A stretch of DNA of 64,000 nucleotides from Paenisporosarcina antarctica (GTDB lineage: Bacteria; Bacillota; Bacilli; Bacillales_A; Planococcaceae): the NCBI RefSeq assembly GCF_004367585.1, contig NZ_CP038015.1:2052001-2116000 (forward strand). Direction: 5' to 3'. The notes beneath the pieces are model-generated. The model was given only the letters and a program-made list of their open reading frames with translations, searched no databases and was not told where the DNA came from. Position numbers and translations under genes: made by a program. Shown here in pieces: positions 13,727-17,954 of the stretch. The stretch's first letter is position 1. The number at the start of each line of letters is the position of its first letter.

Positions 13727-15679
13727 CTAATTGATACTGTTATACTCTATGATTTCATCTTCTATAACTTTTGAGTCTACCATAATTCGGTATGCTCCTT
13801 TTTGACCTTCTTCAATTTCTAATTTAATTTCGTGTAATTTTGTTTCTGTAAGAACAAATTCCTCAACAGGTTCTGTCAAAGTATGGTTCTGATCCTGAAG
13901 ATAAATACGAACGAGTTGTTCAACATCTGGTTCTTCAGGTTCATAAGGAATTTCGACCATTTTCACAAAGGTTTTAATTTGCTTAGCTGTTTGGCCTTTT
14001 GATAACACAATTTCGATCAAGCTACCCGGTTTAAGCATTGTTCCTGCAACTGGCGTTTGAGAAATGACAAATCCTCCAGGTACGTCCACAGAAAAATCTT
14101 CACTCACAATTCGAATGTTAAATCCAGATGATTTAGCATAGTCATTAAGTGTTTTTTCGTTATATGCTTTTGTTAAATCAATGACGCTAATTAGATTAGG
14201 ACCTTTACTCACTGTGAATACGAGTTCGGTTTCATCAGGAATAATATCACTATCTCCTGCTGGTTTTTGAGAAAGAATTCTACCTTCAGGTTCATCTGAA
14301 AATTCTTCTTTTGTTTCAATGGAATCAAAGTTTTGTGATGCTAATAAATCCTTAACATCATTAATATCACGTCCTACGTAATCAGCTAGATAAACTAATT
14401 CTTTCCCACTTGAGACTACGAACTCAATTTCAGTTCCTTCATCTCTTATTTTTCCAATTTGTGGAATAGTACGGATAACTTGACCTTCTTCAATGTCTTC
14501 AGAAGATTCTTGAGATTCATTTCCAGCAATCAAGCCTACATCTTCCACCATAGCAATCGCTTCGTTTAAAGGCAATTTTTCAACATTAGGTACTTCAACT
14601 TTATTTGGTCCAAAAAGTTGTGGGAATGCGAGTATTATAGCTAAACTTGCCAGTATGAGTAATGAAACTATCCCTAAAATCCAAGGCCATTTTTTCTTTT
14701 TCTTTTTTTCTTCAACAACTGGATTCGGTGATGAAGTATTTTCTTTTGAGAGTTTCTTAGTATCGGCTAATTGATCGTAGCTGCCATCTTTAATAATAGG
14801 CATTGCTTTGGTAGCACCATCATCAGTTGGAATGGCAAATGCCTTTTCATTTGCACGTTCTTCAGATAATACGTTATTTAAATCGAATTCCATTTCTTCG
14901 ACAGTTTGGTAACGATTTCGAGGATCTTTTGCTGTCGCTTTCATGACCACATTTTCCAGACTTTGAGGAATACTAGGTACAACAGCTCTTACTGAAGGTG
15001 TTTCAGTTTGTAGATGTTTTAATGCAATGGATACTGCTGATTCACCTAAAAAAGGAAGTTTTCCTGTAAGTAATTCGAACAACACGATACCTAGTGCATA
15101 AATATCTGATCTTTTGGTTGCCGTTCCACCACGTGCTTGTTCAGGAGATAAATAATGTACAGTTCCTAAAACCGAATTAGTTTGAGTAAATGATGTGGCA
15201 CTTAAAGCCATTGCAATCCCAAAGTCTGTAATTTTGACATGATGAATTCCATCCATCAAAATATTTTGGGGTTTAATATCTCGATGAACAATTTGATTTT
15301 GATGAGCGTGGCCAATTGCTGAAGTTAATTGTTTCATGATGTTCACTGTCTCAACTGGTGAAAGTGGTGCAGCATCTACAATATAATGTTTTAATGTTTT
15401 ACCTTCCACAAACTCCATCACCAAATATTGCAAGTCCTTATCTTCACCGACATCAAAAATATTAACAATATTAGGGTGGGTCAGACTAGTTGCGGCAAGT
15501 GCTTCTCGTTGAAATCTTCTATGCAAATCGTCTTCATTTGAAAAATCATATCGCAATACTTTGATGGCTACATCTCGATCAAGAATCATGTCGTGAGCGA
15601 GGTAAACATTGGACATGCCCCCTCCACCAATCATTTCGAGAACTTTATATCGTCCACTGATTCTTTTGCCTACGAGCAT
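13727..15679 (-). CDS. prkC: Serine/threonine protein kinase PrkC with PASTA domains
   Basis: This is a membrane kinase whose extracellular PASTA repeats bind muropeptides and which signals in growth and spore germination. The 650-residue protein has a cytoplasmic Hanks kinase domain (GGGGMSNVYLAHD at 18-30, Lys40, HRDIKPQN at 132-139, DFG at 152-154), a lysine-rich linker, one membrane segment at about 331-354, three PASTA repeats from about 360 to 575 and a C-terminal Ig-like segment. It starts 2 nt after prpC, its partner phosphatase, with the ribosome binding site AGGAGGTG in the end of prpC. Confidence 0.96.
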   Translation of the reverse strand: MLVGKRISGRYKVLEMIGGGGMSNVYLAHDMILDRDVAIKVLRYDFSNEDDLHRRFQREALAATSLTHPNIVNIFDVGEDKDLQYLVMEFVEGKTLKHYIVDAAPLSPVETVNIMKQLTSAIGHAHQNQIVHRDIKPQNILMDGIHHVKITDFGIAMALSATSFTQTNSVLGTVHYLSPEQARGGTATKRSDIYALGIVLFELLTGKLPFLGESAVSIALKHLQTETPSVRAVVPSIPQSLENVVMKATAKDPRNRYQTVEEMEFDLNNVLSEERANEKAFAIPTDDGATKAMPIIKDGSYDQLADTKKLSKENTSSPNPVVEEKKKKKKWPWILGIVSLLILASLAIILAFPQLFGPNKVEVPNVEKLPLNEAIAMVEDVGLIAGNESQESSEDIEEGQVIRTIPQIGKIRDEGTEIEFVVSSGKELVYLADYVGRDINDVKDLLASQNFDSIETKEEFSDEPEGRILSQKPAGDSDIIPDETELVFTVSKGPNLISVIDLTKAYNEKTLNDYAKSSGFNIRIVSEDFSVDVPGGFVISQTPVAGTMLKPGSLIEIVLSKGQTAKQIKTFVKMVEIPYEPEEPDVEQLVRIYLQDQNHTLTEPVEEFVLTETKLHEIKLEIEEGQKGAYRIMVDSKVIEDEIIEYNSIN

Positions 15680-15681
15680 GT

Positions 15682-16431
15682 CTACACCTCCTCTTTTGTA
15701 TTGGTAATTAACACGAGAGAGATGTTATCTTCTCCACCTTTTTTATTTGCGAGATCTACTAGTTGAGTGCCTTTATCAAGAACGGATACATCTGTTGACA
15801 TAATTTTTGTCATGTCATCAATCGATAATTTATTACTTAACCCGTCTGAACATAATAGTAAGTAAGAATATGTAGGAAACATTAATGAAACAAAGTCAGG
15901 CTCAATCGTTTTTTCGGTTCCTAATGATTTTGTAATTAAATTTTTCCTTGGATGACTTTCTGCTTCCTCTTCACTAATTTCTCCATTTTCAACTAAAATG
16001 TTTACATATGAATGATCTTTTGTTAATTGTTTCATTTTTCCAGCGTGCCATTCATAAGCACGACTATCTCCAATATGACAGAGTACTTTTTGTTCGTCAG
16101 TTAATACCGCCGCTAAAAATGTGGTGCCCATTCCTTGGCAATCTTCATGCGTTAAAGAATAATCAAAGATCAAGCTATTAATTTTTTTTACTGAGTTTGA
16201 AAACCAATGTTTAATAGTTTCTTCTGAAGAAAACTGTTCAGAGGTGGCACTATTAAAGTATTCACCAATTTTAGTGACAGCCATATTACTTGCGATATCA
16301 CCTGCATTGTGTCCACCCATCCCATCAGCAATAACTCCTAAACGGACAAAATCTGATCGCACGATAACTGCAGCACAATCCTCATTTACCGAGCGTTTTT
16401 GACCGATATCACTTAATACAGTGTATTTCAT
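15682..16431 (-). CDS. prpC: PP2C-type protein phosphatase PrpC
   Basis: PrpC reverses PrkC phosphorylation. The 249-residue PPM-family enzyme has VLSDIGQKRSVNEDC at the start, IADGMGGHNAGD, the LCHIGDSRAYEW block and LLCSDGLSNKL and GGEDNISLVLI near the end, supplying the metal-binding aspartates. The ATG at 16431 follows GGAG by 9 nt and overlaps the TGA stop of the rlmN remnant (TGATG). This overlap indicates the intact ancestor was coupled to rlmN. Confidence 0.95.
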   Translation of the reverse strand: MKYTVLSDIGQKRSVNEDCAAVIVRSDFVRLGVIADGMGGHNAGDIASNMAVTKIGEYFNSATSEQFSSEETIKHWFSNSVKKINSLIFDYSLTHEDCQGMGTTFLAAVLTDEQKVLCHIGDSRAYEWHAGKMKQLTKDHSYVNILVENGEISEEEAESHPRKNLITKSLGTEKTIEPDFVSLMFPTYSYLLLCSDGLSNKLSIDDMTKIMSTDVSVLDKGTQLVDLANKKGGEDNISLVLITNTKEEV

Positions 16432-16511
16432 CAATTGTCACTCCGTTTCTTGTTGACGCTTCTCTCACGAAGTTGTCTGCAAGGCGCATCAATATCAGAG
16501 TCGTATTCACG
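16431..16511 (-). pseudogene. rlmN: 3' remnant of rlmN (23S rRNA/tRNA methyltransferase)
   Basis: In B. subtilis rlmN lies between rsmB and prpC. Here that space is only 146 nt, but its last 27 codons read REYDSDIDAPCRQLRERSV followed by a lysine/arginine-rich end and TGA. This is recognisably the RlmN C-terminus (RRE-GxDIDAACGQLR in family members), including the conserved cysteine. An in-frame TGA lies five codons upstream of the match, there is no start, and the radical-SAM domain is gone. I read it as the tail left by a deletion. Whether an intact rlmN exists elsewhere cannot be seen here. Confidence 0.75.
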
Positions 16512-16535
16512 ACAGCTTGTTTCTCAAATCAGACA

Positions 16536-16566
16536 AGTCAATGTTGCTTCTTTTACAACATTGACT
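16536..16566. repeat. 11-bp inverted repeat between rsmB and the rlmN remnant
   Basis: AGTCAATGTTG and CAACATTGACT form a perfect 11-bp stem with a 9-nt loop. It is 15 nt past the rsmB stop and could terminate the def-fmt-rsmB transcript, but the minus-strand sequence after it (TGTCTGATTTG) is not a T-run. It may mark the deletion joint of rlmN. Confidence 0.6.
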
Positions 16567-16580
16567 TAATAATTTCTTCT

Positions 16581-17954
16581 TTAGTTCACTTCGTTAGAGT
16601 GTTTCTCTTTTTTTCGTAATGCAGCAACAAAAGAGCCATCGCTGTTAAAATCCTGTGGGAAAACGTGTATCATACCGTTTGTCGTTAAATGTTGGTATGC
16701 TTCAGGTAAAATATTTAATTCTTCCAACTCCATGTCTGAATGATTGGCAAGAAAGGCTTGAACAGTTCCGATATTTTCAACTTCATCAATCGTACAAGTA
16801 CTATATACAATTAAACCACTTGGCTTCAATAACTTATAAGCTTCGTCAAGTAGGCTTAATTGAATTTTATTCAATGAAGCAAAATCTTCTTGTTTTTTGG
16901 TATACTTTATATCCGGTTTCCGACGAATAACACCTAGCCCGCTACACGGTGCATCTACAAGAATACGATCAAATGAATGTTCATCATATTCATGTGTTAA
17001 TTCACGACTATCCCATGTACGTGTTTCAACATTTTCAAAACCTAATCGAGTTGCTTGATCAGAGATAAGTTTAACTTTGTGAGGATGTAGATCAACGGAA
17101 ACTAGAGAACCTTCCCCATTTAGTTTTTCTGCAATATGCATTGATTTACCACCTGGTGCAGCACACATGTCTAACACACGATGACCCGGTTCAACTCGCA
17201 GTGCATAAGTTGGAATCATAGAACTTTCATCTTGTATGGAAACAACGCCATATTGATAAGCCTGAGTTTTAGCCACTTGACCTTTTTCAATATGAAGACA
17301 TTCAGGAATTACTTCGCTTTGGCGTGCCACAATACCTTCATCTAATAACATATCAATTGCCTCTTGCACGGAAATGCGAGTCGTATTTACTCGCACAGTA
17401 TGTGCAGGAGGGATATTATTTTCAAAAGCCATTGTTTCGGCTTTCTCAAAACCAAATTGTTTAACCCATCGTTCTATTAACCATAATGGATGACTTGCCG
17501 CAATTGATAATCGTTCAATAGGATCTACTATCTCATCAGTTGAACGAACTCCTTGACGTAAAATCCCTCTTAAAATCCCATTCACTAAGCCTGCTGTGCC
17601 TTTATGACTTCGTTTTTTGGCAATTTCTACTGCTTCATTTACAGCTGCATGATTTGGAATACGATCTAAATAATGGATTTGGTAAAGTGAAAGACGCAAT
17701 AATTGTCGCACCCAATCATCGAGTTTCCCTTTAATAAATGGTTGTAAATAATAATCGAGAGTCATCTTATGCTGAAGTGTCCCATAAGTAATTTCCGTTA
17801 AAAGTGCACGGTCTTTTAGTTCAATATCATATTTTTCAATTGTTTGATGAAGTAACAAATTGCTATATGCTTGATTTTTTTCAATAGACATTAATATTGA
17901 TAATGCCGCGTCACGTACATTTCCATTCCACATTCGGTATGATTTATTACTCAT
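16581..17954 (-). CDS. rsmB: 16S rRNA (cytosine-967-C5)-methyltransferase RsmB
   Basis: RsmB methylates C967 of 16S rRNA. The 457-residue protein has an N-terminal NusB-like RNA-binding domain (about 10-130) and a C-terminal SAM-dependent NOL1/NOP2/sun domain with DMCAAPGGKSMHIA, VDAPCSGLGVIRRKPD and VYSTCTIDEVEN. The cysteines in PCS and STC are the release and catalytic residues. Its start overlaps the fmt stop by 4 nt (ATGA); MWNGNVRD seven codons in is an alternative start. It normally precedes rlmN, here degraded. Confidence 0.95.
   Translation of the reverse strand: MSNKSYRMWNGNVRDAALSILMSIEKNQAYSNLLLHQTIEKYDIELKDRALLTEITYGTLQHKMTLDYYLQPFIKGKLDDWVRQLLRLSLYQIHYLDRIPNHAAVNEAVEIAKKRSHKGTAGLVNGILRGILRQGVRSTDEIVDPIERLSIAASHPLWLIERWVKQFGFEKAETMAFENNIPPAHTVRVNTTRISVQEAIDMLLDEGIVARQSEVIPECLHIEKGQVAKTQAYQYGVVSIQDESSMIPTYALRVEPGHRVLDMCAAPGGKSMHIAEKLNGEGSLVSVDLHPHKVKLISDQATRLGFENVETRTWDSRELTHEYDEHSFDRILVDAPCSGLGVIRRKPDIKYTKKQEDFASLNKIQLSLLDEAYKLLKPSGLIVYSTCTIDEVENIGTVQAFLANHSDMELEELNILPEAYQHLTTNGMIHVFPQDFNSDGSFVAALRKKEKHSNEVN

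Follow-up and report, generated by a model that had tools for sequence, protein, structure and literature searches.

The spacer between rsmB and prpC in the window (the whole stretch of DNA analysed, 64,000 nt of Paenisporosarcina antarctica) appears best explained, with a probability of roughly 0.6, as a displacement fossil of rlmN that was recruited as a structured leader of prpC. An ancestor would have carried two RlmN genes, RlmN-A in an rsmB-rlmN-prpC operon and RlmN-B, of a separate clade, elsewhere; RlmN-B would have made RlmN-A dispensable, and most of rlmN-A would have been deleted, probably once and before the seven genomes that now carry the scrap diverged. The deletion would have left the last ~75–85 nt of the gene, holding the prpC Shine-Dalgarno sequence, and after the death of the gene this tail would have become a hairpin (helix P3 with P4 at its tip), closed by a further outer helix, P2, that covers the Shine-Dalgarno sequence; it would probably serve as a leader, hiding the ribosome site and thereby setting prpC translation. 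It is close to certain, taken jointly, that the scrap is a fossil of rlmN-A and that the gene was displaced by RlmN-B; for the displacement the A/B pattern is observed and we infer the order of events, and for the leader step the shared fold is a computed result, to which masking and any regulation would be added as a predicted consequence. Recruitment of the rlmN-A C-terminal codons, after gene death, as a cis-acting RNA leader controlling PrpC translation (hence the PrpC/PrkC balance) and replacing the translational link to rlmN is put forward as a tentative proposal.

Table 1. Features of the rsmB–prpC region in window coordinates
Feature	Position	Strand	Basis or remark
prpC, protein phosphatase	15682..16431	(-)	start ATG at 16431; gene name from the earlier note
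rsmB	16581..17954	(-)	stop at 16581; gene name from the earlier note
RlmN-A remnant, 3' end of operon-type rlmN	16438..16520	(-)	alignment to intact G001; SW score 56
Inverted repeat, terminator-like stem after rsmB	16534..16568	(-)	arms 16535-16546 and 16556-16567, 12 nt
P2 5' arm ACTCTG	16496..16501	(-)	predicted fold; pairs with the prpC Shine-Dalgarno region
P3 5' arm TTGATGC	16486..16492	(-)	predicted fold; inherited from rlmN codons
P4 5' arm CTTG	16480..16483	(-)	predicted fold; 1/4 pairs broken in the window sequence
P4 3' arm AGAG	16462..16465	(-)	predicted fold
P3 3' arm GCGTCAA	16453..16459	(-)	predicted fold and alignment; absent from the intact G001 tail
P2 3' arm CGGAGT	16440..16445	(-)	contains Shine-Dalgarno GGAG; predicted P(GGAG unpaired) 0.02 in the window

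The remnant (Table 1) was identified by comparison with G001, a genome assigned to the same genus by genome search, in which an intact rlmN stands between rsmB and prpC; the final rlmN codons of G001 can be matched to the window spacer nucleotide by nucleotide, and the rsmB of the window is homologous to the gene upstream of the intact rlmN-A. Aligned to the C-terminus of G001 RlmN-A, the window spacer scored 56 against a maximum of 35 for dinucleotide-preserving shuffles (0/2000), which rules out a chance reading, and the spacers of G002–G007 scored 59–93 (0/500 shuffles each). Altogether 7/9 same-genus genomes carry the same scrap, which rules out an assembly error as its cause and bears out the earlier note, which had read the spacer as an rlmN remnant. 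The alignment across relatives that had been advised there separated an intact form (G001), the scrap (seven genomes) and a deleted form (G008, score 15, at chance level; 437/500 shuffles); a complete rlmN at the locus, named there as evidence against the reading, is absent from the seven scrap genomes and present in the relative G001. Among 27 measurable spacers of other genera no RlmN-A scrap stood out (best case, 15/200 shuffles equal); three of the 30 B-type junctions (L102, L110 and L122) were unmeasurable, with rsmB missing or out of order.

Read on the minus strand from the rsmB stop to the prpC start, the spacer translates as RRNY*VNVVKEATLTCLI*ETSCREYDSDIDAPCRQLRERSVNKKRSDN*. By alignment to intact G001, about 16 codons (CREYDSDIDAPCRQLR) keep the RlmN frame, after which one nucleotide is missing compared with the intact gene; in the remnant no RlmN frame is open over the catalytic domain. 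The tail of 27 codons described before is to that extent confirmed for ~16 codons, the remainder lying in a shifted frame; because of the deletion, both the end of that reading and its TGATG overlap with the prpC start, which had been likened to that of an intact neighbour, are out of the RlmN frame. The ancestral stop TGA is out of frame in the window (16438-16440), and the ancestral end ..QQETE* is still in frame in G002, G003 and G004. Coding constraint on the scrap was ruled out, as the frames differ among species and the changes are not concentrated at third positions; a small leader ORF was rejected by eye, starts at the P3 ATG giving different ends and lengths among species.

Retention of the last ~75–85 nt of rlmN-A with the Shine-Dalgarno sequence is evident from these alignments. 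The last 18 nt of the remnant, with the prpC Shine-Dalgarno sequence, are identical in 7/7 scrap genomes (the remnants of G005 and G006 being nearly identical overall), and G008, from which rlmN-A is also gone, keeps a Shine-Dalgarno-like block only; both points would suit the unlikely case that displacement by RlmN-B is right, that the Shine-Dalgarno sequence alone is under selection and that the rest is debris with a coincidental hairpin. The block in G008 (L017; assembly 81% complete) lies in a 93-nt rsmB-prpC spacer, and this incomplete assembly yielded no RlmN at all, whether A or B.

For the displacement, the full genome was searched for an rlmN homologue, as had also been advised. Exactly one RlmN over the curated cut-off of TIGR00048 was found (424–425 versus 290 bits), with no internal stop; this gene, RlmN-B, is located ~116 kb from the remnant, outside the window, and its ORF contains the motifs GCNIGCSFC, VCVTTQVGC and DIDAACGQLR, which we take to be the radical-SAM CX3CX2C motif and the two catalytic cysteines. 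All seven scrap genomes have an intact RlmN-B that passes this cut-off. RlmN was thus probably not lost from the organism, and its enzyme activity is predicted to be retained. The earlier note, seeing the operon copy of rlmN gone, had suggested a change in ribosome modification, i.e. a strain without m2A2503 and m2A37; with an intact RlmN-B over the cut-off in the window genome and in 7/7 scrap genomes, and with the three motifs in place, loss of RlmN function was rejected and that suggestion is scarcely credible, its proviso of a copy elsewhere having turned out to apply. RlmN-B was also rejected as a Cfr 23S rRNA methyltransferase: it belongs to the same wide protein family but reaches 253 bits against a cut-off of 550 and 264 bits against a cut-off of 530 on the Cfr models, far under both. 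RlmN-B of the window genome shares 94% identity with four named Paenisporosarcina records and 91% with P. indica. Its neighbours, one on each side, are presumably glnA and lexA; within the genus the lexA side was constant in 4/4 loci compared, and the glnA side was within reach in 3/4. Between rlmN-B and the lexA-like gene lies an 85-aa ORF (L001:779-1036, L212; own genome C1, outside the window), which by eye we take to resemble a phage holin.

Across 261 genomes of the family, best TIGR00048 matches were of type A in 104 (E 7e-161 to 2e-149, 497–535 bits) and of type B in 155 (E 5e-134 to 9e-126), and a search of 250 of the 261 with the RlmN-B protein gave the same split. G221, whose copy runs off the contig end, was counted as B; the two genomes outside A and B were G214 (75% complete), with an RlmN fragment only, and G008, with none. 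B is present alongside A in four genomes (G260, G164, G157 and G027, the last 8% contaminated), and no match in the A score range was found among the B genomes once second matches had been resolved; the four show that an intermediate state with both genes exists. A adjoins prpC in 21 loci cut around both genes by coordinates and in 60/60 short loci from four A-type genera that were excised with reference to prpC only. Compared with RlmN as defined by TIGR00048, RlmN-B agrees in lying over the curated cut-off and the remnant in aligning to the operon-type C-terminus, but RlmN-B forms a separate clade, is 56% identical to the operon type of G001 and has no neighbourhood common across genera; its neighbours are mostly genus-specific, one being shared by g4 and g13, and gene family F28 is found close to B in L019 and, on its other side, in L203. 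Seven of 26 named B genomes (26/80 loci matching the genome's RlmN) have two full RlmN genes (Paenibacillus, Cohnella and Desulfosporosinus) and 19 have one. As separate observations, two RlmN-B copies were present in 8/9 g13 genomes examined (G124, G126, G127, G129, G130, G136, G138 and G140; loci L197-L202), the second copies grouping in the tree with the B of G260, G164, G157 and G027 (3/8 genomes sampled), and extra RlmN/Cfr-family matches of ~270–291 bits, Cfr-like by score only, were seen in G035, G045, G048, G049, G053, G056, G057, G058, G077, G132, G150 and G203, that of G058 being split over two frames.

On the protein tree of 76 RlmN sequences, A (17 rows) was split from B (59 rows) by one branch with SH-aLRT 100; tree checks flagged long branches, above all L097. 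The B of the genus adjoins that of Planococcus (SH-aLRT 88), and on an rpoB tree of 28/30 genomes (G008, with no rpoB match, and G025, with a split rpoB, were left out) Planococcus is joined to the Paenisporosarcina genus with support 92/92. Since G001, an A genome, falls beside the Paenisporosarcina genus on the rpoB tree, with weak support (80/67), the B genomes do not form one clade there, although a single clade was not rejected (p-AU 0.06). This pattern requires two or more losses of A from a two-gene state, or else more than one arrival of B. That the genus acquired RlmN-B in a horizontal transfer independent of Planococcus, and not by descent from a two-gene ancestor, is a serious possibility without being the favoured one: none of the window-genome neighbours of RlmN-B was found beside RlmN-B in other genera, and the relative G001 has A without B, but reshuffled gene order could also explain the differing neighbours, the position next to Planococcus B matches the rpoB tree, and the test on one clade of B genomes speaks on the same side. 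The rpoB of G025 (L241, G025:C1:102319-105713) consists of two separate open frames of 653 and 601 aa in an otherwise complete genome.

Two separate lineages of this conserved ribosome-modifying enzyme occur in one family, and over half of the genomes lack the operon copy; an rlmN missing from its usual position is therefore not to be taken as a sign that the modification is missing. Within the literature searched, outside of which most subscription journals lay, no published report of RlmN-A/RlmN-B displacement or of an rlmN-tail leader was found; the accessible part of a Cfr phylogeny (PMC11047308) does not treat two RlmN lineages.

For the leader, the scrap was analysed for a fold common to six distinct sequences (G006, nearly the same as G005, was left out here and in the scrap-rate, spacer-rate and codon-position tests). 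In the common fold, P3 (UUGAUGC/GCGUCAA) carries P4 on top, and P2 (CUCUG/CGGAG) closes over the Shine-Dalgarno sequence. Standard pairs fill 97.1% of 102 pair cells (10/500 shuffles as high); three pairs are changed on both sides (12/500 as high) and 13 further pair types occur (10/500), with pairing kept through the double-sided changes in G002 and G007. Six slid versions of the fold pair 31–66% of cells; the version slid by -2 also has three double-sided changes, but only 38% of its cells are paired. RNAalifold gave 26 pairs, four of them with double changes, and the consensus energy was below that of 1000/1000 column-shuffled alignments (z -5.3; P3 and P4 alone, z -7.3). Among 40 gene-start regions of the same genomes, the prpC start was third lowest (z -5.0) after o39 (-11.3), presumably an attenuator-bearing pyr gene, and o9 (-5.2); z was about -4.2 or lower in 4/39 other regions. 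Values of ~ -4.2 were recorded at the o7 and o71 starts, and -2.7 at the prkC start (window near 15680).

On this evidence the shared RNA structure is likely to be real. Single sequences fold hardly better than their shuffles (z -0.56 to -2.50), which favours the case for debris with a coincidental hairpin; the covariation rests on six distinct sequences only, and P2 varies little, its 5' arm being inherited coding sequence. Against that case stand the column shuffles (0/1000), the pairs kept through double-sided changes in G002 and G007 and the lack of any such fold in intact rlmN-A tails. The latter were tested in four genera (60 loci, reduced to 18, 19, 12 and 4 distinct sequences by dropping identical ones; mean identity 0.92, 0.77, 0.91 and 0.90) and gave z-scores of +1.31, -0.11, +0.64 and +1.07 with no consensus fold, a test of reduced power because three of the four sets are 90–92% identical. 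At its 3' end, intact rlmN-A showed no clear constraint on synonymous sites (0.55–0.58 versus 0.54–0.72 elsewhere in the gene). Inheritance of the structure from the living rlmN was rejected on these two grounds, and the lack of a fold in intact tails together with the absence of the P3 3' arm from G001 points to a fold most likely gained after the death of rlmN-A.

Model R1, built on the fold element, had one match in its own genome and, within the family, matched 45/261 genomes at E<=0.001 (R1 E-values being rough): the seven scrap genomes at 104–139 bits and 38 others at 32–58 bits. All 38 weaker matches belong to A-type genera or G001 and lie at the prpC start by coordinates, i.e. they are intact rlmN tails, and occurrence of the element elsewhere was rejected. 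Rfam models searched against window 15600-17000 gave nothing over the gathering score, only a chance tmRNA match (8.2 versus 47 bits) inside rsmB.

Rates of change were determined for the 59 nt preceding the last 18 nt of the scrap, which differ by 7–34% between distinct species, versus 30–66% at prpC/rsmB 4-fold sites. Relative to the 4-fold rate, taken from a tree built on 43 genes with 3864 4-fold columns, the scrap has a rate of 0.20 and the spacer just upstream one of 0.67, a difference that again counts against plain debris; 30 random sets of 59 4-fold columns gave 0.62–1.11. However, six other spacers of the same genomes, taken whole, gave 0.15–0.23 in five cases and 0.38 in one, so the scrap is not slower than ordinary spacers (rates were measured for 7/11 spacers, including the scrap's own; the other four had fewer than six genomes), and when the best 59-column stretch was compared, 7/9 other spacers were more alike than the scrap (0.74) and two less (0.56 and 0.68). 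As most other measured spacers are equally slow, the slowness is weak evidence, and slow change alone was rejected as proof of selection; a rate within that of other spacers (0.15–0.38) is compatible with debris, and its likeness to spacers upstream of genes also suits a DNA element. Some of the slow comparison spacers are probably leaders or promoters, and the scrap behaves like these, or else spacers are slow in general. By ancestral codon position (20 columns each), minority letters number 19, 18 and 12 at positions 1, 2 and 3, and the scrap consensus agrees with intact G001 at 16, 19 and 8 columns, as expected from an earlier life as a gene; late gene death would put the changes at third codon positions, and they are not concentrated there.

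The prpC Shine-Dalgarno sequence is predicted to be closed in 6/7 scrap genomes (probability of being unpaired 0.01–0.10) and about half open in G007 (0.53); the values are 0.46 in G001 and 0.47 in G008, and the 60 intact rlmN tails have a mean of 0.51, none being at or below 0.10. Of 30 other gene starts measured in the window genome, however, six have values of at most 0.07. That the leader masks the prpC ribosome site is plausible, at a little less than an even chance, and the leader would most likely lower or condition prpC translation, with no ribosome arriving from rlmN. PrpC opposes PrkC, a cell-wall-sensing kinase, and altered prpC translation could shift the balance between them.

Messenger RNA leaders that mask ribosome sites include ribosomal protein leaders and RNA thermometers; the predicted prpC hairpin resembles them in its position directly upstream of the start codon and in having the Shine-Dalgarno sequence in a helix, but it derives from what is left of the end of a dead protein gene, and no Rfam family reached its gathering score on it. 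Pseudogene remnants and non-orthologous gene displacement are likewise known in bacteria, an ancestral gene being deleted where an equivalent is present and scrap being left; the rlmN-A scrap differs in having gained a fold not found in the tail of the living gene. The parts are therefore of known kinds, and their combination, a dead gene's tail turned into a structured leader, was not found in the literature searched. If true, this would be a case of the tail of a dead protein gene becoming regulatory RNA, with living (G001 and other A-type genera), dead-and-folded (seven genomes) and erased (G008, Planococcus and Sporosarcina) forms to compare. That the scrap is common to several species, and that it folds, goes beyond what had been noted before.

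Retention of the tail as DNA, as a prpC-prkC promoter or operator once located inside the 3' end of rlmN, was also considered and is improbable. The terminator-like stem after rsmB could cut off upstream transcription in the window, but a sigma-70 scan of 16380-16700 gave no minus-strand site, intact rlmN-A lacks clear synonymous constraint at its 3' end, and the double-sided pair changes argue for RNA. The inverted repeat that forms this stem had been reported as 11 bp next to the joint; the repeat does exist, with arms of 12 nt, upstream of the scrap. The terminator scan reads it, on the minus strand, as a stem of 14 pairs with a T-rich tail, and this stem may keep transcription of prpC-prkC apart from that of the operon upstream. 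This part of the spacer is unalignable with other species, only G003 aligning with G005/G006 among themselves. No minus-strand terminator-like site was found over the P3/P4 hairpin in the same scan, and the remnant hairpin was rejected as an intrinsic terminator or attenuator, as there is no T run and its 3' arm is followed by CAAGAAACGG. A second terminator-like site, a 5-pair stem, was recorded in the spacer at 16500-16513 (+).
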